Assembly (NCBI RefSeq): GCF_040529045.1
Contig: NZ_CP131914.1
Span: forward strand, 1,038,501-1,102,500
Origin: Xanthomonas indica
GTDB lineage: Bacteria > Pseudomonadota > Gammaproteobacteria > Xanthomonadales > Xanthomonadaceae
Reading direction: 5' to 3'
Length of the DNA stretch: 64,000 nucleotides
The position numbers and the translations under genes were made by a program. Below are positions 55,272 through 64,000 of the stretch, piece by piece. The notes below the pieces were generated by a model. The model was given only the letters and a program-made list of their open reading frames with translations. It searched no databases and had not been told where the DNA came from. The stretch's first letter is position 1. Every line of letters begins with the position of its first letter.

Positions 55272-56855
55272 TCAGTGACGGAAGTGGCGCACGCCGGTGA
55301 ACACCATGGCGATGCCGTGCTCGTCGGCCGCGGCGATGACCTCGGCGTCGCGCATCGAACCGCCGGGCTGGATCACCGCCTTGATGCCGGCCGCGGCGGC
55401 GGCGTCGATGCCGTCGCGGAACGGGAAGAACGCATCGGAGGCCATCACCGAGCCTTCCACGGCCAGGCCGGCATCGGTGGCCTTGATCCCGGCGATGCGC
55501 GCCGAATACACCCGGCTCATCTGCCCGGCGCCCACGCCGATGGTGCGGTGGTCCTTGGCGTAGACGATGGCGTTGGACTTGACGTACTTGGCCACCTTCC
55601 ACGCGAACAGCAAGTCGGCGAACTGCGCCTCGGTCGGCGCCAGGCGGGTCACCACCTTCAGCGCATCGCGCGGGACCACGTGGGCGTCGCTGGTCTGCAG
55701 CAGGATGCCGGAGCCGACGCGCTTGCTGTCGATGCCGTAGGCGCCGTCGCCGGCGGGGATGCGCAGCACGCGCACGTTGGCCTTCTTCTTGGCGTACTCC
55801 AGCGCGGCGTCATCGTAGTCGGGGGCGATCAGCACCTCCACGAACTGGCGGTCCAGGATGACCTTGGCGGTGGCCGCATCCAGCGTGCGGTTGAAGGCGA
55901 TGATGCCGCCGAAGGCGCTGGTCGGGTCGGTGGCGTAGGCCAGTTCGTAGGCGTCGCCGCAGCCGGCGCCGACCGCCACGCCGCACGGGTTGGCGTGCTT
56001 GACGATGACGCAGGCCGGCGCGTCGAACTGGCGCACGCACTCCCAGGCCGCATCGCTGTCGGCGATGTTGTTGTAGGACAGCTCCTTGCCCTGCAACTGG
56101 GTGAAGGTGGCCAGGGTGCCCGGGGTGGGGAAGAGGTCGCGGTAGAACGCGGCCTGCTGGTGCGGGTTCTCGCCGTAGCGCAGTTCCATCACCTTGACGA
56201 AGCTGGAGTTCATCTGCGCCGGGAACGGGCTGCGCACCGGCACCGCGGCGTCGCTGGCGGTGACCGCGGACAGGTAGTTGCTGATCGCCGCGTCGTACTG
56301 GGCGACGCGGTTGAACGCGGCCACGGCCAGGGCGAAGCGCTTGCCCGCCGACAGCCGGCCGTCGTTGGCCTCCAGCTCGGCCAGCAGCTCGGCGTACTGC
56401 GCCGGATCGGTGGCCACCGCCACGCGCGCGAAGTTCTTGGCCGCCGAGCGCAGCATCGCCGGGCCGCCGATGTCGATGTTCTCGACCGCCACGTCAAGCG
56501 TGCAGTTGGCATCGGCGGTGACCCGCTCGAACGGATACAGGTTGAGCACCAGCAGGTCGATCGCGGCGATGCCGTGCTCGGCCATCACCGCATCATCGGT
56601 GCCGGCGCGGCCGAGCAGGCCGCCGTGCACCAGCGGGTGCAGGGTCTTGACCCGGCCGTCCATCATCTCCGGGAAGCCGGTCAGCTCGGACACGTCCTTC
56701 ACCGCCAGCCCGGCCTCGCGCAGCGCCTTGGCGGTGCCGCCGGTGGACAGCAGCTCGACGTTGCGCGCGGCCAGCGCGCGGGCCAGGTCGATCAGGCCGG
56801 TCTTGTCGGAAACGGACAGCAGCGCCCGGCGCACGGGCAGGAAATCGGAGGACAT
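55272..56855 (-). CDS. purH: Bifunctional AICAR transformylase / IMP cyclohydrolase
   Basis: A 527-residue enzyme that carries out the last two steps of IMP synthesis. The N-terminal MGS-like cyclohydrolase domain (~1-200) has [35 protein letters not shown] and [20 protein letters not shown]. The transformylase part has [29 protein letters not shown] and [14 protein letters not shown] near the C-terminus, with the Lys-His pair in KHANPC. The start at 56855 is supported by GGAG close upstream on the coding strand (gggcagg context is weaker). Confidence 0.97.
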
Positions 56856-57192
56856 GGGGCAGGGCGGGGGCAGCGGAACGGGCCGCCATTGTAGGCGCTG
56901 AGGCCCGCCGACGCCCGGCCGGGGCGCGCGCCCGGCCCGCCGATCGTGCCTGCGGCAGCGCGCTCCAGGCGATCGCGCCGGGATGCGGTGGTCGTGCGCA
57001 TGTGCCGATCCGCAGCGCGGGCCGTGCTGCGCGGCACCCTGCCGCGTGTCGATGCGGCGCACGGGGTGGGCCGTCGCTGGCGACGCCCGTGTGGGTCAGC
57101 GGGTTGCCGGGCTGCACGCGCGCCATCGCGCGCGCTGCCGCGGCGATGCATTAGGCTGTCGCCGCCCCGCCCTCGCCGTCAGGACCACGCGC
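56856..57192. other. Divergent spacer between purH and the ynb-like operon
   Basis: About 340 bases, very GC-rich, without a supported gene. It should hold the purH promoter and the promoter of the lipid operon. GCATTAGGCT near 57146 might contain a -10 but no clear -35 was found. A purine-repressor type palindrome was not recognised. Confidence 0.45.
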
Positions 57193-57807
57193 GTGTCGAT
57201 CTATGCCCTCAAAGGACGTTTCCAGGATCTGCTGCGGCCGGGCGTGCGCGTGTTGTACCGGCGCGGCGTCACCGCCAACCAGGTGACCGTGGCCGCGGCG
57301 CTGCTGTCGTTGCTGGTCGCCGCGGTGGTCTACGCGCAAGGCGCCACGCAGCCGCTGTGGTACGCGTTGCTGCCGCTGTGGATGCTGCTGCGGATGGCCT
57401 TGAACGCGGTGGACGGCATGCTGGCGCGCGAGTTCGGCCAGCAGTCGCGGCTGGGCGCCTACCTCAACGAACTGAGCGACGTGGTCGCCGATGCGGCACT
57501 GTACCTGAGCCTGCTCGGCGTGCCCGGCGTTGGCGCCGGCTGGCTGTGGCTGATGGCGCTGACTGCCGCGATGACCGAATATGCCGGCGTGCTCGGGCTG
57601 ATGGTCGGCGCCAGTCGCCGCTACGATGGGCCGATGGGCAAGAGCGATCGTGCCTTCGTCGTCGGCCTGCTGGGGCTGCTGCTGGCCGGCGGCTGGATCG
57701 GGGCGGCGACGGTGACTGGGGTCGCCATGGCCACGGCGCTATTGTGCTTGGCGACCGTGGTGCGTCGGGTCGCCGCCGGATTGCGCGAGGCGGCCACGCG
57801 CGCGTGA
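57193..57807 (+). CDS. CDP-alcohol phosphatidyltransferase-like protein 1 (YnbA/YnjF-like)
   Basis: A 204-residue membrane protein with six helices and first gene of the operon. The family motif appears as N71-A-V-D74-G-M-L-A-R, then G88 and N92-E-L-S-D96. The canonical pattern is D-x2-D-G-x2-A-R-x8-G-x3-D-x3-D, so two of the four catalytic/metal Asp are Asn here. E. coli YnbA and YnjF are the nearest recalled relatives. It starts with GTG at 57193 (MSIYALKGRFQDLLRP). Product lipid is unknown. Confidence 0.85.
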   Translation: MSIYALKGRFQDLLRPGVRVLYRRGVTANQVTVAAALLSLLVAAVVYAQGATQPLWYALLPLWMLLRMALNAVDGMLAREFGQQSRLGAYLNELSDVVADAALYLSLLGVPGVGAGWLWLMALTAAMTEYAGVLGLMVGASRRYDGPMGKSDRAFVVGLLGLLLAGGWIGAATVTGVAMATALLCLATVVRRVAAGLREAATRA

Positions 57808-57871
57808 GTGGGGGGCGGCCGGCGCGGCTGCAGGGCACAGGGATTCACGGCAGACAGGACATCGGCAACGG

Positions 57872-59626
57872 ATGCGGCAGGTCAACGAAAGCGAATTCGC
57901 CAGTTTCGACGGCACACGGCTGTTCTACCGGCACTGGCCGGCCACCGCGCCGGCGGCGCCGCCGCGGGCGGTGCTGCTGCTGCACCGCGGCCACGAACAT
58001 TCCGGGCGGGTCATGCACCTGGCCGAGGAACTGGGCCTGGACGACTGCGCGCTGTTCGCGTGGGATGCGCGCGGCAATGGTCGCTCGCCCGGTGCGCGCG
58101 GCGACGCGCCCGGCTTCCCGGCGCTGGTGCGCGACCTGGACCGCTTCGTCGCGCACATCGGCGAGGTCCACGGCATCGCCGTGCAGGACATTGTGGTGGT
58201 GGCGCAGAGCGTGGGCGCGGTGATCGCCAGCGCCTGGGTGCACGACTACGCGCCGCCGCTGCGCGCGCTGGTGCTGGCCTCGCCGGCGTTCAAGGTCAAG
58301 CTGTACGTGCCGTTCGCACGGCACGGGCTGGCCTTGCTGCGGAAGCTGCGCGGCAACTTTTTCGTCAACAGCTACGTCAAGCCGCAGTGGCTGACCCACG
58401 ACCCGGCGCGGGTCGAGAGTTACCGCACCGATCCGCTGATCACCCGGCCGATCTCGGTGCGGGTGTTGCTGGGCCTGTATGCGGCGGCGGACCGCGTGGT
58501 CGACGATGCGCAGGCGATTACCGTACCGGTGCAACTGCTGGTGTCCGGCAGCGATTTCGTGGTGCACCGCGGGCCGCAGGATCGCTTCTACGAGCGTTTG
58601 TCCTCGCCGGTGAAGGAGCGTCACCTGCTGCCCGGCTTCTTCCACGACACCCTGGGCGAGCGCGACCGCGCGCCGGCGCTGGCGCAGATCCGCCGCTTCG
58701 TGCGCGCGCGCTTCGCCGAGGCGCCGGCGCTGCCCAGCCTGCGTCAGGCGCACCGGCGCGGGCCGACCTTCGAGGAAGCCGAGCGCCTGGCCTGGCCGCC
58801 GCAGCGCTACAGCCTGCAGGACCTGCGCTGGCGCGGCGTGCGCGCCGGGCTGCGCCTGGGCGGGCGGCTGTCCGAGGGCATCGCCCTGGGCCTGCAGACC
58901 GGCTTCGATTCCGGCAGCACGCTGGACTACATCTACCGCGACCAGGCCGCCGGGCGCGGCCCGCTGGGGCGGATGATCGACCGCAACTACCTGGATGCGA
59001 TCGGCTGGCGCGGCATCCGCGTGCGCCGCCAACATCTGCACGAACTACTGGGCCTGGCGATGCAGCGGCTGCGCGCCGCCGGCCTGCCGGTGCGCGCGCT
59101 GGACATCGCCGCCGGCCACGGCCGCTACGTGCTGGAAGCGCTGGCCGGCGGCAGCCAGCGCGCCGACGCGATCCTGTTGCGCGATTTCAGCCCGTTGAAC
59201 GTGGAGCAGGGCCGCGCGCTGATTGCCGCGCTCGGCGCCGCCGACATCGCCCGCTTCGAGCAGGGCGACGCCTTCGACCGCGACGCGTTGGCGGCGTTGC
59301 AGCCGCGGCCGACGCTGGCGGTGGTGTCGGGCCTGTACGAGCTGTTCCCGGACAACGACCAGGTGCTGCGATCGCTGCACGGCGTGGCCGCGGCGGTGGC
59401 GCCGGGCGGTTACCTGGCCTACACCGGCCAGCCCTGGCATCCGCAGTTGGAGTTCATCGCCCGCGCGCTGACCAGCCACCGCGGCGGCGCGGCCTGGGTG
59501 ATGCGCCGGCGCACCCAGCAGGAGATGGACGAACTGGTGCGGGTGGCCGGCTTCCGCAAGCTGGAGCAGCGCATCGACGACTGGGGCATCTTCACCGTGT
59601 CGCTGGCGCAGCGGATCGCGCCATGA
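57872..59626 (+). CDS. Bifunctional alpha/beta hydrolase - SAM methyltransferase (YnbC-like)
   Basis: A 584-residue fusion. Residues ~1-285 are an alpha/beta hydrolase (LLLHRGHEHSGRVMHLAEEL; nucleophile Ser in VVVAQSVGAVIAS; catalytic His probably in LPGFFHDTLGERD). Residues ~300-584 form a class I methyltransferase with motif I ALDIAAGHGRYVLEALAGG and a following RDFSPLNVEQG. The same fusion is found in E. coli ynbC. It would hydrolyse and methylate a lipid-linked substrate or fatty ester. The stop overlaps the next start (ATGA). Confidence 0.9.
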   Translation: MRQVNESEFASFDGTRLFYRHWPATAPAAPPRAVLLLHRGHEHSGRVMHLAEELGLDDCALFAWDARGNGRSPGARGDAPGFPALVRDLDRFVAHIGEVHGIAVQDIVVVAQSVGAVIASAWVHDYAPPLRALVLASPAFKVKLYVPFARHGLALLRKLRGNFFVNSYVKPQWLTHDPARVESYRTDPLITRPISVRVLLGLYAAADRVVDDAQAITVPVQLLVSGSDFVVHRGPQDRFYERLSSPVKERHLLPGFFHDTLGERDRAPALAQIRRFVRARFAEAPALPSLRQAHRRGPTFEEAERLAWPPQRYSLQDLRWRGVRAGLRLGGRLSEGIALGLQTGFDSGSTLDYIYRDQAAGRGPLGRMIDRNYLDAIGWRGIRVRRQHLHELLGLAMQRLRAAGLPVRALDIAAGHGRYVLEALAGGSQRADAILLRDFSPLNVEQGRALIAALGAADIARFEQGDAFDRDALAALQPRPTLAVVSGLYELFPDNDQVLRSLHGVAAAVAPGGYLAYTGQPWHPQLEFIARALTSHRGGAAWVMRRRTQQEMDELVRVAGFRKLEQRIDDWGIFTVSLAQRIAP

Positions 59627-60960
59627 GCGTTGCGGCCACGCGGCCGTGGCGGCGTGCGCTGGCCTGGCTGGCGCTGCTGGGGCCGTTCTTCTTCCTCAGC
59701 TACGGCCTGGCCAACACCCTGGCCGCGCGCCGCGCCGACGTGCCGGCGCTGCCGTTCGCCTGGGAAACCCACATCCCGTTCTGGCCGTGGAGCATCGTCC
59801 CGTACTGGTCGATCGACCTGTTCTACGCGGCCTCGTTCTTCGTCTGCCGCACGCGCGCCGAACTGGACACGCATGCACGGCGCCTGCTCACCGCGCAGCT
59901 GCTGGCGGTGGCCTGCTTCCTGCTGTGGCCGCTGCGCTTCAGCTTCGAGCGGCCGCCGACCGAGGGCGTGTTCGGCTGGCTGTTCGCAGTGCTGCTCGGC
60001 TTCGACAAGCCGTTCAACCAGGCGCCGTCGCTGCACATCGTGCTGCTGGTGGTGCTGTGGGTGCGCTACGCGCAACACCTGCACGGGCTGGCGCGGTGGG
60101 TCCTGCACGGCTGGTTCGCGCTGATCGGGCTGTCGGTGCTGACCACCTACCAGCACCATTTCCTCGACGTGCCCACCGGCCTGGCCGCCGGCTGGCTGTG
60201 CGTGTGGCTGTGGCCGGAGCGCATCGCCGCGCCGTGGCGGGCCGCGGCGCCGGCGCGCGATCCGCGGCGCTGGCGCCTGGCCGCGCTGTACCTGCTCGGC
60301 AGCGCGGCCTGCGCGGCCGCCGCACGCGCGCTCGGGGGCGCCGGCTGGTGGCTGCTGTGGCCGGCGCTATCGTTGCTGCTGGTCGCGCTCAGCTATGCAC
60401 TGCTCGGCCCGCTCGGCCTGCAGAAGCGCGCCGACGGCCAGCTGAGCCTGGCCGCGCGCTGGCTGTACGCGCCGTACCTGGCCGCTGCCTGGCTCAACTC
60501 GCGCGCCTGGACCTGGCGCGATCCGGCGCCGCGCGCGATCGCCGACGGCGTCTGGCTCGGGCGCCTACCCGGCCGTGGCGAGCGCGCACGCTTCGCCGTG
60601 GTGGTCGATGTCAGTGCGGAACTGTCGTTGCGCGAGGCGCAGGCGCACGACCGCGTGGTGCCGATGCTGGACCTGGTGGCGCCGCCGGCCGCAGCCTTGC
60701 GCATGGCCGCCGACGCGATCGAAGCGGCGCGCGCGCACGGCCAGGTACTGGCCTGCTGCGCGCTGGGCTATTCGCGCAGCGCGGCCGCGGTCGCCACCTG
60801 GCTGCTGCGCAGCGGCCGTGCCGCCAACGTGGACGACGCGCTGGCGCTGCTCCGTGCGCGCGCGCCGCGGATCGTGCTGGGACCGGCGCAGCGTGCCGCC
60901 ATCGCCGCCGCCTGCACCGCGCCGCCGGCGTCGCTGCAGGCGCAGGAACTGCCGGCATGA
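59623..60960 (+). CDS. PAP2 - dual-specificity phosphatase fusion (YnbD-like)
   Basis: A 445-residue membrane protein. The first ~300 residues hold a PAP2-type domain with several helices, FNQAPSLHIVLLVVLW and TTYQHHFLDVPTGLAAGW (the His and His-Asp signatures). The C-terminal ~130 residues form a dual-specificity phosphatase-type domain with Cys379 and Arg385 in CCALGYSRSAA (C-x5-R). YnbD of E. coli has the same composition. It should remove phosphate from a lipid phosphate such as PGP-like or prenyl-phosphate intermediates. Confidence 0.9.
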   Translation: MSVAATRPWRRALAWLALLGPFFFLSYGLANTLAARRADVPALPFAWETHIPFWPWSIVPYWSIDLFYAASFFVCRTRAELDTHARRLLTAQLLAVACFLLWPLRFSFERPPTEGVFGWLFAVLLGFDKPFNQAPSLHIVLLVVLWVRYAQHLHGLARWVLHGWFALIGLSVLTTYQHHFLDVPTGLAAGWLCVWLWPERIAAPWRAAAPARDPRRWRLAALYLLGSAACAAAARALGGAGWWLLWPALSLLLVALSYALLGPLGLQKRADGQLSLAARWLYAPYLAAAWLNSRAWTWRDPAPRAIADGVWLGRLPGRGERARFAVVVDVSAELSLREAQAHDRVVPMLDLVAPPAAALRMAADAIEAARAHGQVLACCALGYSRSAAAVATWLLRSGRAANVDDALALLRARAPRIVLGPAQRAAIAAACTAPPASLQAQELPA

Positions 60961-61406
60961 GCACGCCGCTGGAATTGCGCACGATGGCGGCGGTGCTGCG
61001 CCAGGGCGCGCCGCTGGATCGGCTGTCGCGGGTGTTGCTGGCGACGGCCCTGCTGCTGGGCGCCTGGTATGCCGGCACCGGCGCCATGCTCGCCGCGGCG
61101 TTGTGCGGAGGCTCGGTGTTGGCCGGCCTGCTGCAGCGCTACTGGGCGGCACGGGTCGGGTTGGATGCGGATCTGCTCGAGGCGGTGCTGGCCGAGGCCG
61201 ACCCAGCGCGCGCCGGTGCCGACCTGGACGCGGCGCTGCAGCGGTTGGGCCTGCTGCGCACGCTGCCGCCGCCGCGCGACTGGCTGGCGCGCTGGCAGGG
61301 CATGCGCCGCCTGTTGCGGCGGCAGGTGCTGTGCTTCGCCTTGCAGGCGCTCGCCTTGGTGTTGGCGCTGTGCATGGCGCCGGCCGGCTGGGGGGCGATG
61401 CGATGA
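60957..61406 (+). CDS. Small membrane protein of the ynb-like operon, function unknown
   Basis: A 149-residue protein with three hydrophobic segments (SRVLLATALLLGAWYAGTG, AALCGGSVLAGLLQ and the C-terminal LCFALQALALVLALCMAP). No family was recognised. Between the second and third segments lies an Asp/Ala/Arg-rich cytoplasmic loop. It overlaps its neighbours by four bases at both ends (ATGA), so it is an integral part of the operon even though E. coli ynb lacks it. Confidence 0.7.
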   Translation: MSTPLELRTMAAVLRQGAPLDRLSRVLLATALLLGAWYAGTGAMLAAALCGGSVLAGLLQRYWAARVGLDADLLEAVLAEADPARAGADLDAALQRLGLLRTLPPPRDWLARWQGMRRLLRRQVLCFALQALALVLALCMAPAGWGAMR

Positions 61407-62878
61407 CGCGAACGCCCACGCCGCTGCGGCCGGCCGCGGTCGATCCCGATCACGCGGCGCTGTGGCAGCGTCTGCAGGCCGATGGTTTCGGCGAGGGCGA
61501 GACGGCGTTGCCGGCGTTCGAGCGCCGCGTCGCCGAGGAGGCCGGCGTGTCGCTGGCGCTGGCCGCGCACCTGGTCGAGGAGTACCGGCGCTTCTGCTTC
61601 CTGGCCTGCGTCGCCGGCGAGGAGATCACGCCAAGTCCGCTGGTCGACCAGGCCTGGCATGCCCATCTCACCGATACCCGCGAGTACTGGCAGCGGTTCT
61701 GTCCACAGGTCCTGCGCCGTACGCTGCACCACCATCCCGGGCGCGGCGACCCGGCCGACGCCGCGCGCTTCCAGGCCCAGTACGCGGCCACCCTGTCGCA
61801 CTACCGGCACTACTTCGGCGAACCGCCGGCGGCGTGCTGGCCGGCACCGGCCGGCGCGCCGCCGCTCGCGCCGGCAATGCGCCAGGCAAGCACGCGCGAC
61901 ACCGCGACCGCGCGCGGCGGCATCGCCCTGTGGGGCTGGATGCTGGGCGTGGCGCTGTTGTTCGCGGTGCTATGGCAGCGCCACGGCCCGCTTTCGCCGC
62001 TGCACTGGCCGGGACCGCCGTTCCTGCTGCTGTTCCTGGCCGGCATCGGCCTGGCCTGGAGTCTGGGCGCGCGTCTGCGCCTGGCGGTGCGCGCACTGCC
62101 AGGCGCGGCGCTCGATACGCCACTGGACGCCACCGAACTGGCCTACCTGGCCGGTGGCAGCGAGCGCGTCGCCGATCAACAACTGGCCTTGCTGCTGGCG
62201 GCCGGTGCGGTGCGCCTGCAGGCCGAACCGCATGTGCGCCGCCACGCGCGGCTGCGGCTCACCGGTGTCGCGGCAACACCATCGTTGCAGCGCGCGCTGG
62301 CGATCGTGCACGCGCATCCGTACCTGCAGCCGGCACTGGCCGCGTTGCAGCGCGACGCCGCGCCGCTGCGCCGGGCGCTGGTCGACAAGGGGCTGTGGCT
62401 TGGCCAGGGGCAGGCGTTGTGCGCGCGCCTGTTCGGCGCCGCACCGTTGCTGGCGCTGTGGACGATGGGCCTGCTGAAGCTGCGTATCGGCCTGCAACTG
62501 CAGCGCCCGATCGGCTTCCTGGTGGCAGCGATGGTGGTGGTCGCGGTCGTTGCGCTCGGCTTCCTGCTCACGCCGCCGCGGCGCAGCGTCGCCGGTGACG
62601 CCCTGTTGGCCAACCGCGATGCGGCCTGGCGCGACGGCGTCGCCGCGCCCTCGCTGGCGCCCGGTTCGCACCTGGCGTTGCCGCTGGCCCTGGCCGGCAC
62701 CAGCGTGCTGATGACCACGCCCTGGGCCGACTACCACGCCTTGCGCGCACCGGGGGCCAACGGCCGTGGCGGCCGTTGTTCAACGACGAGCTGCAGTAGC
62801 TGTGGCGCTGGCAGCAGCGATGGGGGCGGCAGCAGTTGCGGCGGCGGTGGCTGCGGCGGGTGTGGAGGCGGCGACTGA
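61403..62878 (+). CDS. TIGR04222-type membrane protein with Cys/Gly-rich tail
   Basis: A 491-residue protein. Residues ~20-150 contain WHAHLTDTREYWQRFC and related His-rich patches, resembling the glycine-rich-domain-containing (GRPD) fold. The middle and C-terminal parts have four helices (WMLGVALLFAVLWQ; PPFLLLFLAGIGLAW; LLALWTMGLLKLRI; FLVAAMVVVAVVALG) with LDATELAYLAGGSERVADQQ between, as in TIGR04222 proteins. The last ~45 residues are Ser/Cys/Gly-rich with about seven Cys (SSCGGGGCGGCGGGD). Function is unknown; the tail might be secreted or bind metal. Confidence 0.72.
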   Translation: MTRTPTPLRPAAVDPDHAALWQRLQADGFGEGETALPAFERRVAEEAGVSLALAAHLVEEYRRFCFLACVAGEEITPSPLVDQAWHAHLTDTREYWQRFCPQVLRRTLHHHPGRGDPADAARFQAQYAATLSHYRHYFGEPPAACWPAPAGAPPLAPAMRQASTRDTATARGGIALWGWMLGVALLFAVLWQRHGPLSPLHWPGPPFLLLFLAGIGLAWSLGARLRLAVRALPGAALDTPLDATELAYLAGGSERVADQQLALLLAAGAVRLQAEPHVRRHARLRLTGVAATPSLQRALAIVHAHPYLQPALAALQRDAAPLRRALVDKGLWLGQGQALCARLFGAAPLLALWTMGLLKLRIGLQLQRPIGFLVAAMVVVAVVALGFLLTPPRRSVAGDALLANRDAAWRDGVAAPSLAPGSHLALPLALAGTSVLMTTPWADYHALRAPGANGRGGRCSTTSCSSCGAGSSDGGGSSCGGGGCGGCGGGD

Positions 62879-63531
62879 TGGCCGGTTCGAGCTGGCAGGT
62901 GCGGCGCGCGCAGTGGCGAACGCGGCTGGCGCTGGCGTTGCACGCGCGCGGGGCCACGCCCAACGGTGTGTCCTGGAGCGGGCTGGCGTGCGCGGTGCTG
63001 GCTGCGCTGATGTTCGCCCTGGCCTGGCGCGAGCCGCCGGCCAACGCCGCCGCGCTGCTGGTGCTGGCGGCGCTGGCGCTGCAGGCGCGGCTGCTGTGCA
63101 ACCGCCTGGACGGGTTGCTGGCGCAGCAGGCGCAGATGATCGGCCGTGCCGGTGTGGTGTACAACGAGGCGCCGGACCGCTTGTCGGACGTGGCGGTGTG
63201 CCTGGGCGTGGGCTACGGCCTGCAGCCGGTGCTGGGCATCGGCGCGGAACTGGGCTGGGCCGCCGCCTTGCTGTGCGTGGGCACTGCCTACGTACGCATG
63301 CTCGGCCTGGCCTGCGCGGTGCGCGAACCGCTGCAGGGGCCGATGGCGCGCGTGCAGCGCATGCATTGGCTGTCGTTGGCCGCGCTGTTGGCGGCCGCGT
63401 CGTTGCTGCTGCAGCACGCCACGCTGGCCCGCATGCTCCTTGCCGTGGCGCTGGCGCTGCTGATCGCCGCTGCCGCCCTCACCATCGTGATCCGCGTGCG
63501 CGCCATCGTGCGCGAACTGGAGTGGAAATGA
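62878..63531 (+). CDS. CDP-alcohol phosphatidyltransferase-like protein 2
   Basis: A 217-residue, six-helix protein. The motif reads N75-R-L-D78-G-L-L-A-Q, then G92 and N96-E-A-P-D100, again with Asn at the first and third Asp positions of the classical motif, plus Gln in place of the motif Arg. It is therefore a divergent paralogue of the protein at 57193. The start shares one base with the preceding stop (TGATG). The substrate is unknown. Confidence 0.82.
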   Translation: MAGSSWQVRRAQWRTRLALALHARGATPNGVSWSGLACAVLAALMFALAWREPPANAAALLVLAALALQARLLCNRLDGLLAQQAQMIGRAGVVYNEAPDRLSDVAVCLGVGYGLQPVLGIGAELGWAAALLCVGTAYVRMLGLACAVREPLQGPMARVQRMHWLSLAALLAAASLLLQHATLARMLLAVALALLIAAAALTIVIRVRAIVRELEWK

Positions 63532-64000
63532 TCGCCCGCCTGATCGCCCGCGGCTGCAGCGCCGCGATCCGCCTGCTCACCGGCGCACGTGCGCTGTGGC
63601 GCGGCTGCATGCCGTCCAGCGAACGCCGCGTGTACTACGGCAACCATGCCAGCCACGGCGATTTCGTGCTGATCTGGTCGTCGCTGCCAGCGCCGCTGCG
63701 GCGCGAGGTGCGGCCGGTGGCGGCGGCCGACTATTGGCAGCGCGACGCGCTGCGCCGCTACCTGATCCACGCCGTATTCAACGGCGTGCTGATCGAGCGC
63801 GAGGCCGCGCAGCGCACGCGCGATCCGATCGACTGCCTGTGCGAGGCGGTGGACGCCGGCGGCTCGCTGATCCTGTTCCCGGAAGGCACGCGCAACACCG
63901 AGGACGGCCTGCTGCCGTTCAAGAGTGGGCTCTATCACCTGGCGCGGCAGCGTCCGGAACTGGAGTTCGTGCCGGTGTGGATCGACAACCTCAAGCGGGT
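63528..64000 (+). CDS. Lysophospholipid acyltransferase (PlsC-like), cut by window edge
   Basis: The first 157 codons are present. NHASHGD (His40, Asp45) is the HX4D catalytic motif, and LILFPEGTRNTEDGLLPFKS the second substrate-binding motif. It overlaps the preceding stop (ATGA). In E. coli-type and other ynb-like clusters a PlsC-like protein and a CdsA-like protein (YnbB) are often next; the latter would lie past the window end. Confidence 0.88.
   Translation, partial: MIARLIARGCSAAIRLLTGARALWRGCMPSSERRVYYGNHASHGDFVLIWSSLPAPLRREVRPVAAADYWQRDALRRYLIHAVFNGVLIEREAAQRTRDPIDCLCEAVDAGGSLILFPEGTRNTEDGLLPFKSGLYHLARQRPELEFVPVWIDNLKR

Follow-up and report, generated by a model that had tools for sequence, protein, structure and literature searches.

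Close to the end of the window (the whole stretch of 64,000 nucleotides that was analysed) begins a tightly packed operon of eight genes, all on the + strand, which was found to extend past the end of the window when the contig was read on beyond 64000. Gene 1 (57193..57807; 204 aa) is ynbA/arc1A-like and belongs to the CDP-alcohol phosphatidyltransferase family, with a CDP-OH_P_transf (PF01066) score of 39.1 bits that passes the curated cut-off of 22. Gene 2 (57872..59626; 584 aa) encodes a ynbC/arc1B-like fusion of a monoacylglycerol-lipase-like hydrolase (Hydrolase_4) and a Methyltransf_20 domain; gene 3 (59623..60960; 445 aa), a ynbD/arc1C-like fusion of a PAP2-like membrane phosphatase, visible as motifs only and without a Pfam match, and a dual-specificity phosphatase (C-x5-R; DSPc match); gene 4 (60957..61406; 149 aa), an arc1D-like helical membrane protein for which domain family searches gave no family. 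Gene 5, here g491 (61403..62878), codes for a TIGR04222 membrane protein of 491 aa, and gene 6, here cdp2 (62878..63531), for a second CDP-alcohol-transferase-like protein of 217 aa; together they form the cassette described below. They are followed by a plsC/arc1E-like acyltransferase gene with an H-x4-D motif and a PF01553 match (gene 7, 63528..64160, running past the window end at 64000; 210 aa) and by a ynbB/arc1F-like gene of the CTP_transf_1 (CdsA/YnbB) family (gene 8, 64157-65131 in extended window coordinates; L005:8658-9632). Genes 1 and 2 are separated by 64 bases, the successive junctions from gene 2 to gene 7 overlap by 4, 4, 4, 1, and 4 bases, and genes 7 and 8 overlap by 4 bases. 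The presumed catalytic residues of YnbC are present in 14/14 aligned copies, and those of YnbD and PlsC in nearly all copies. The sequence-only reading, which had listed seven open reading frames overlapping by one or four bases at every junction but the first, is confirmed on all these points, and the domain types it had assigned agree with the domain searches (for the PAP2 part, by motif only). It had also proposed a ynb-type lipid operon and suggested looking for a CdsA/YnbB-like gene beyond 64000; gene 8 is that gene, which supports the proposal, homologs of YnbA, YnbB, YnbC, and YnbD being all together in this operon.

Six of these genes form an operon that is conserved in Lysobacteraceae and in Pseudomonas. 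We compared 80 named loci, the best 80 of 585 ranked by closeness to the window's YnbC, and therefore leaning to close relatives; the core order ynbA-ynbC-ynbD-149aa-plsC-ynbB occurs in 64 of them, and the core with the g491-cdp2 cassette in a further nine. The 53 Pseudomonas loci among these best 80 have genes of the YnbA, YnbC, YnbD, 149-aa, PlsC, and YnbB types, arranged in this sequence with few exceptions. For this family and for Pseudomonas, there is strong support for the earlier assumption that the 149-aa protein belongs to the pathway: its gene is present in 78/80 of the same named loci (best 80 of 585) and, in a draw of 119 genomes from one family, in all 21 genomes with ynbC and in none of the remaining 98. 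It is absent from E. coli and from five other gammaproteobacterial operons examined. In this draw, 22 of the 119 genomes match PF12147, and one (G179, 22 bits) was dropped to give the 21 ynbC genomes; the operon count also excludes the second copy of G215 (L084; 371 bits) and a weak one in G225. In the 369-genome search, 16 genomes match, only the 10 over 280 bits being counted. Because the A1 and A2 models derive from operon copies, only their absence elsewhere, and not the recovery of those copies, counts as a test. The relatives behind all counts are not independent of each other, so that Fisher values calculated from them are overstated, and seven contigs are present twice under two locus names, which makes distinct counts lower than copy counts (YnbC, 110 of 117; YnbD, 102 of 109; PlsC, 96 of 106).

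The standard motif of CDP-alcohol phosphotransferases contains four Asp residues, DxxDGxxAR(x8)GxxxDxxxD (PMC8633023). Despite its PF01066 score, gene 1 does not have this four-Asp motif: the window YnbA reads N-x2-DG-x2-AR-x8-G-x3-N-x3-D, with Asn at positions 1 and 3. The same Asn for Asp replacement at these two of the four metal-binding positions was found in 114/114 YnbA copies (107 distinct), chosen without motif preselection. The cdp2 motif in the window is N-x2-DG-x2-AQ-x8-G-x3-N-x3-D, and 19/19 cdp2 copies (17 distinct) likewise have no Asp at two of the four positions. That this loss extends to all YnbA and cdp2 copies examined is a new observation. Changes of motif Asp to Asn or Ser reduce or abolish the activity of MjPSS, where D62N is not rescuable (PMC8633023); hence YnbA may not even function as an ordinary transferase, and the phosphatidyltransferase role of YnbA and cdp2, which both depart from the standard catalytic motif, is only putative. 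The best NCBIfam score of cdp2 is 40 bits against a cut-off of 180, which makes it CDP-transferase-like but under every NCBIfam cut-off, and cdp2 has no Pfam match up to an E-value of 0.1, the PF01066 cut-off not being reached. Matches to NF040950, NF045883 and, for cdp2, NF052561 are all below cut-off as well. The sequence-only reading had taken cdp2 for a duplicated phosphatidyltransferase; in our trees, it does not look like a recent duplicate that arose from gene 1 within this lineage (these trees include only five of the named YnbA and exclude the near-identical L067, L073, L076, L085, L086, L088, L144, L149, L154, and later L117).

The motif bears directly on a simple explanation, that the operon just duplicates ordinary phosphatidylglycerol (PG) synthesis (PlsC, CdsA, PgsA, PGP phosphatase) and makes no product of its own. 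The gene types fit the PG route, as the authors describing the Pseudomonas aeruginosa cluster arc1 also remark (PMC8926400), and among solved structures YnbA is closest to phosphatidylinositol-phosphate (PIP) synthases and other CDP-alcohol phosphotransferases. However, the Asn variant is invariant in the 114 YnbA copies, while the three other CDP-transferases found in the same genome retain all four Asp, and PG synthesis has no step for a fusion of hydrolase and methyltransferase. We thus regard a plain duplicate of the PG route as unlikely.

The two genes inserted in the core constitute a two-gene cassette, not described before, which is present or absent as a pair. In the 119-genome draw, 10/21 ynbC operons have both cdp2 and an in-operon g491, and 11/21 have neither (22/119 genomes match g491, only the 16 over the cut-off being used). 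The g491 protein comprises an N-terminal His/Cys/Trp-rich domain, a TIGR04222 domain (near_uncomplex; about 210-436) that scores 87.4 bits and passes the curated cut-off of 43, and a Cys/Gly tail ending in GCGGCGGGD. GCGGCG is found in the tail of 26/26 g491 copies (23 distinct), a set that excludes three split or divergent genes of locus L113. Seven g491 relatives stand alone, outside ynbC operons. The claim that the 491-aa protein belongs to the pathway is supported, but g491 is an optional add-on tied to cdp2 in 10/21 ynbC operons; g491 and cdp2 may act together in this pathway.

The cassette might instead be an insertion that is neutral or self-sufficient, sharing the expression of the operon but working separately. 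Consistent with this, it occupies fewer than half of the ynbC operons, needs six changes of state on the YnbC tree (61 rows, quick search), and is missing from Xanthomonas cannabis, which has neither gene in an otherwise identical gene order. On the other hand, it overlaps its neighbors by 1 and 4 bases, cdp2 shares an enzyme family with ynbA, and TIGR04222 genes adjoin ynbC in an unrelated family too (G551; 14 of 369 genomes match in this search, the six over the cut-off being used). We therefore find an independent insertion rather improbable. The tail of g491 raises a further possibility, namely that g491 is a precursor in which an MNIO (DUF692) enzyme modifies this Cys-rich stretch, a metal-binding, RiPP-like protein that happens to be located in the lipid operon. 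TIGR04222 proteins are indeed candidate MNIO substrates with tails predicted to be periplasmic, according to the passages of PMC12452194 that deal with them; GCGGCG is invariant in the g491 tails, and the genome of the window has an MNIO gene elsewhere (C1:3693093, the operon being at C1:1095693). Yet none of the 10 cassette operons has an MNIO match in its vicinity, the nearest on a shared contig being at about 171 kb (G244), and three of the 10 cassette genomes (G220, G201, and G251) have no MNIO match at all, with intact tails; in addition, the pairing of g491 with cdp2 is complete in the 119-genome draw. Such a precursor is in our opinion quite unlikely, and we retain a role of the pair in the lipid pathway as the preferred reading.

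In P. aeruginosa, PA2541-PA2536 have been named arc1A-F, for antagonism resistance cluster 1 (PMC8926400, PMC12663445). The eLife 2022 paper describes PA2536-41 as six genes, five of them of phospholipid metabolism and four resembling PG-synthesis enzymes, under Gac/Rsm control; loss of arc1 lowers survival under Burkholderia thailandensis T6SS attack, and arc1 mutants are not detergent-sensitive (PMC8926400). In the named loci, an RsmA-like ANGGA lies upstream of ynbA in 65/74 cases, where it is indistinguishable from Shine-Dalgarno sequences. The Nat Commun 2025 paper reports that arc1A is needed for full resistance to the lipases TseL and Tle1 and seems auxiliary to arc3A (PMC12663445). In the eLife study, the arc1 defect persisted when effectors of the attacker, among them the Tle1 and Tle3 lipases, were mutated one at a time, so that a lipase-specific role is unsupported there (PMC8926400). 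PA2541 probably corresponds to YnbA, on the basis of the description in that paper (PMC8926400), partial primer fits, and annotation. Of eight primer-derived probes (eLife oligo table), two fit as expected in Pseudomonas loci: the PA2536-start probe at the plsC/ynbB junction in 5/11 loci (no fit at the expected place in 6/11), and the one from downstream of PA2541 within ynbC in 4/11 (no fit there in 7/11). The other six had no consistent place in the 11 Pseudomonas loci, and the exact PA2541 start was found in 0/119 genomes of a Pseudomonas genus. Neither arc1 paper uses the term "ynb" in its main text (PMC8926400, PMC12663445), and a literature text search found no paper containing any two of ynbABCD, ynbA, and arc1A. 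The earlier statement that the ynb product is uncharacterized still holds, but the operon is not an uncharacterized one, its six-gene form probably corresponding to P. aeruginosa arc1A-F (PMC8926400, PMC12663445).

Taken together, these data lead us to favor, with some confidence, a scenario in which the operon is the Xanthomonas form of arc1, E. coli ynbABCD being a shorter relative, and makes a special PG-like phospholipid for defense. The enzymes would form a phospholipid pathway of their own that is used on demand: PlsC would acylate lysophosphatidate, YnbB would synthesize CDP-diacylglycerol, YnbA, as an Asn-variant transferase, would transfer the phosphatidyl group to an alcohol phosphate, YnbD would remove the phosphate from the YnbA product, and YnbC would trim or transfer an acyl chain and methylate the product. 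The outcome would be a modified, PG-like phospholipid that maintains envelope function under toxin damage to the normal lipids. In Xanthomonas and Lysobacter, cdp2 with its TIGR04222 partner may make a second headgroup variant or deliver the product to the periplasmic side, the expected location of the Cys-rich tail of g491. More speculatively, and with less chance of being right than not, YnbA/Arc1A and cdp2 could represent a catalytic class of their own within the CDP-alcohol phosphotransferase fold, with two of the four metal-binding Asp obligatorily replaced (by Asn in YnbA), that makes an undescribed phospholipid armor against membrane-attacking toxins, the TIGR04222 proteins with GCGGCGG tails being dedicated partners of one branch and their Cys-rich periplasmic tail a carrier or acceptor of lipid or headgroup.

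YnbB also suggests another product, an MPIase-like glycolipid: YnbB would make CDP-diacylglycerol and then GlcNAc-PP-diacylglycerol, and the other genes would process the latter for membrane protein insertion. In PMC6362211, overproduced E. coli YnbB increased MPIase to about the same extent as CdsA and was no substitute for CdsA in bulk phospholipid, but an E. coli ynbB knockout showed no significant change in MPIase nor any noticeable change in growth. Moreover, none of the eight proteins matches a glycosyltransferase family in Pfam and NCBIfam domain searches, and the defense phenotype of the Pseudomonas operon would be left unexplained, which makes the glycolipid scenario very improbable. 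Returning to the arc1 reading, the Asn motif provides a testable biochemical handle on arc1, as the conserved double change is expected from the MjPSS mutants to impair the standard reaction and the Pseudomonas counterpart of Asn-motif YnbA is needed for defense, and the existence of natural Xanthomonas with and without the cassette (e.g., X. cannabis) allows a direct test of the added pair.

Compared with known systems, the operon is like E. coli K-12 ynbABCD, whose YnbC and YnbA are 55% and 42% identical to those of the window and whose YnbA has the same Asn motif; the E. coli operon differs in its order, with ynbB second, and has no plsC, 149-aa, TIGR04222, or cdp2 gene. Among CDP-alcohol phosphotransferases (PIPS, MjPSS, AF2299), the YnbA profile matches solved PIPS and AF2299, and the motif shares DG, A-R/K, G, and the last D, whereas Asp 1 and 3 are replaced by Asn in YnbA and by Asn, Ser, or His in cdp2. 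The Bacteroides-type inositol-lipid module consists of a PIP synthase, a PAP2 protein, and a PIP phosphatase. Our operon resembles it in having a PIP-synthase-related CDP-transferase beside a PAP2 and a protein-phosphatase-like phosphatase, a likeness seen in the above matches to NF040950, NF045883, and NF052561 under the cut-off, although no inositol-phosphate synthase was recognized by eye among the open reading frames in or adjoining the operon. Like other TIGR04222 membrane proteins, some of which are MNIO-linked, g491 has a Cys/Gly-rich C-terminal tail; unlike the MNIO-linked ones, it has no MNIO nearby, and its constant partner is a CDP-transferase encoded in a phospholipid operon; the passages on TIGR04222 in PMC12452194 do not mention such a setting. 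Finally, all six arc1-type genes (YnbA, YnbC, YnbD, small membrane protein, PlsC, and YnbB) are present in this operon, which, like arc1A-F, contains a six-gene lipid set, five of the six being lipid-related in the published description (PMC8926400), but differs from arc1A-F by two added genes between the 149-aa gene and plsC. Three threads that are separate in the literature we found, E. coli ynbABCD, the P. aeruginosa arc1 defense cluster, and the unexplained TIGR04222 proteins, are thus joined at this locus.

The seven open reading frames that the sequence-only reading described in the window (C1:1038501–1102500, within a 4.8-Mb genome) are confirmed, all on the forward strand and packed as stated there, with a 64-base gap separating gene 1 from gene 2 and then overlaps of 4, 4, 4, 1, and 4 bases. 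That reading had proposed looking for a CdsA/YnbB-like gene past position 64000, and one is present: plsC (gene 7, + strand) ends at 64160 in the sequence read past the window end, overlapping by 4 bases an eighth gene, ynbB (64157–65131, + strand), which matches CTP_transf_1 (CdsA/YnbB) with 236 bits. Just upstream, a purH-like gene recognized by eye (55272–57062, minus strand) points away from the operon; because the two diverge, ynbA probably has its own promoter, and a consensus scan of the upstream sequence gave none.

Gene 1 (ynbA) matches PF01066 with 39 bits against a cut-off of 22. Gene 2 (ynbC), whose product is 92% identical to that of X. bonasiae, its nearest named match among the best 80 of 585 loci, fuses a Hydrolase_4 domain (225 bits) to a Methyltransf_20 domain (505 bits); monoacylglycerol lipases are the closest solved relatives of the hydrolase part, and its presumed triad, Ser113/Asp228/His258, is invariant in all 14 aligned copies. 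Gene 3 (ynbD) encodes a DSPc phosphatase domain (40 bits). All 109 copies have PSxH; 107 of them have C-x5-R, and 101 retain its stricter form, CALGxSR. Domain searches assigned no family to the 149-aa product of gene 4; AlphaFold models it with confidence (mean pLDDT 93.5) as an all-helical protein, for which comparison with the PDB gave no telling match. Gene 5 (g491) matches TIGR04222 (87 bits, cut-off 43), gene 6 (cdp2) resembles archaetidylinositol- and phosphatidylinositol-phosphate synthases with scores far under cut-off, and gene 7 encodes a PlsC-type acyltransferase whose H-x4-D is kept in 105 of 106 copies. The N-terminal 150 residues of the g491 protein (gene at 61403) carry a strict WHxH...Y..FC...L..LHH pattern that is suggestive of a metal or cofactor site and resembles glycine-rich-domain proteins of plants and bacteria.

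Scanning named genomes with a YnbC alignment kept the best 80 of 585 loci, 53 of them from Pseudomonas. On the HMM map, the order ynbA-ynbC-ynbD-149aa-plsC-ynbB was found in 64 of these 80 (63 rows plus locus L151) and, with two extra genes, in nine; two Shinella loci (L184 and L209, alphaproteobacteria) have ynbA on the strand opposite to the rest of the operon, and five have incomplete or different gene sets (L165, L178, and L214, short contigs or contig ends, and L204 and L213). L178, from an Acetobacteraceae MAG, has the order ynbB-plsC-ynbA/C-ynbD, and a single open frame (L178:1350–4397) holds both YnbA-like and YnbC-like stretches, which is either a true fusion or an artefact of sequencing. 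The 149-aa gene belongs to the core set in the family of the window (Lysobacteraceae) and in Pseudomonas: in a draw of 119 family genomes it occurs in the same 21 that have a real ynbC, alongside it each time, and it is present in 78 of the 80 named loci (best 80 of 585). Two further gammaproteobacterial families (L111, L113) also have it next to ynbD; it was not found in E. coli, in five other gammaproteobacterial operons (L112, L114–L117), or in one family genome outside the draw (G081, L088:9327–9638). The ynbD of this last locus is seemingly truncated to ~100 aa, with the remaining operon present.

The core of six genes probably corresponds to a known defence operon, arc1, its identity in P. 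aeruginosa resting on the published description and on partial probe fits. According to the original report, arc1A–F (PA2541–PA2536) is a Gac/Rsm-induced cluster that the cells require to survive type VI attack by B. thailandensis; of its six genes, five are lipid-related and four resemble PG-synthesis enzymes, and the mutants show no sensitivity to general stresses (PMC8926400). In the same study, no single attacker effector, including the lipases Tle1 and Tle3, accounted for the defect, which argues against a purely lipase-directed role (PMC8926400). A CRISPRi screen recovered arc1A again, and the same study reports that it contributes, in a part auxiliary to that of arc3A, to resisting two lipases, TseL and Tle1 (PMC12663445); PA2541 is listed elsewhere as an RsmA target with a single known site (PMC4066749). 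As an independent check, eight probes derived from primers in PMC8926400 were mapped to a subset of 11 among the 53 Pseudomonas loci. The PA2536-start probe fell on the plsC/ynbB junction in five of the 11 (4–5 mismatches of 20) and the probe from the primer downstream of PA2541 within ynbC in four (3–5 mismatches of 18), while in the other loci the best fit of each probe lay elsewhere; the remaining six probes had no consistent position on these 11 loci, and the exact PA2541 start was found in none of 119 genomes of a Pseudomonas genus.

The most interesting result of the analysis concerns the common motif of CDP-alcohol phosphotransferases, DxxDGxxAR(nx)GxxxDxxxD. In MjPSS, the four Asp hold two metals, Ser or Asn substitution cuts or abolishes activity, and no rescue was possible for D62N, at the third Asp (PMC8633023). 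YnbA has Asn at positions 1 and 3 in 114 of 114 copies (107 distinct sequences), selected without the motif; the window, E. coli, and unnamed loci, 37 together, supply 34 of these (three have no YnbA), and the 80 named loci (best 80 of 585) supply 80, including 53 of 53 from Pseudomonas. In all 19 second transferases, position 1 is Asn or Ser and position 3 is Asn, Ser, or His; the 11 mini-operon transferases discussed below all have Asn at both. Three further PF01066 proteins found in the genome of the window keep all four Asp. Since arc1A has a phenotype in Pseudomonas, mere decay is an unlikely explanation for the conserved Asn form of YnbA; the motif may reflect a different use of metal or a different substrate.

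The TIGR04222 protein is optional in Lysobacteraceae operons. It exceeds the cut-off in 16 of the 119 family genomes, in 10 of which the gene occupies the same site, between the 149-aa gene and plsC and ~3.1–3.4 kb from ynbC, and exactly these 10 of the 119 searched have cdp2 at >300 bits. Both genes of this cassette, g491 and cdp2, are found in 10 of the 21 ynbC operons of the draw and neither in 11; among the named loci (best 80 of 585), nine carry the pair and no locus carries a single member of it. X. cannabis lacks g491 and cdp2, though it lies inside a Xanthomonas group having the pair; in pv. cannabis a gap of ~230 bases (L145:13526–13759) takes their place, the final three dozen or so bases of this gap, next to plsC, look like the end of cdp2, and the two genes were probably lost together. 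The cdp2 of X. prunicola (L138:15022–15660) has a more degraded motif, with AP for AR and His at position 3, and is perhaps decaying. Seven stand-alone TIGR04222 genes of the family (L089–L095) have varied neighbors within 4 kb, with no lipid operon seen beside them, and their products share the g491-type N-terminal domain and the GCGGCG tail. In a class survey of 369 genomes, TIGR04222 exceeded the cut-off in six and ynbC was found in 10; two genomes, G000 and G551, have both, and in each they lie next to one another. G551, from another family, has two TIGR04222 genes and a separate N-terminal-domain gene directly before ynbC-ynbD-149aa, so that the link between TIGR04222 and ynb genes is seen twice. 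At L113:6875–9923, in an unrelated gammaproteobacterium, the two domains are separate genes adjoining ynbC-ynbD-149aa; the 18-kb contig gave no ynbA, ynbB, or plsC match.

Mini-operons were found in family genomes without ynbC, nine with the order cdp-plsC-ynbB (L125–L133) and two with ynbA-plsC-ynbB (L134, L135); all lack ynbC, ynbD, and the 149-aa gene, and their transferases are cdp2-like in nine and of YnbA type in two, which suggests that a CDP-transferase, PlsC, and YnbB form a minimal core module. In a tree of moderate support with long branches, cdp2 branches together with the transferases of the nine cdp-plsC-ynbB mini-operons (94/97), apart from YnbA (87/92), giving moderate support to the view that it did not arise as a duplicate of YnbA. 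Compared with 20 named Lysobacteraceae-group ynb operons, the window PlsC shows 70–91% identity and the window YnbB 83–95%; compared with the mini-operons, the values are 48–56% and 30–62%. The cdp2 gene therefore seems to have joined the operon without the mini-operon PlsC and YnbB.

Taken as a whole, the operon is best explained, in a reading that we favor by a modest degree, as a Xanthomonas form of arc1 that makes a modified phospholipid for defence. Gene content, order, conservation, presumed catalytic residues, Asn changes, and cassette pairing are the observed parts of this mechanism. The defence role was shown in P. aeruginosa (PMC8926400; PMC12663445), and Xanthomonas would use its operon in the same way. 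The product would be a PG-like methylated lipid, reached through a putative order of reactions in which the g491–cdp2 cassette may play a part. Compared with the sequence-only reading, the role of the operon has become less mysterious and its chemistry more so. The operon is real and well conserved, a variant of the arc1/ynb kind; that of E. coli K-12 consists of ynbA-ynbB-ynbC-ynbD only.
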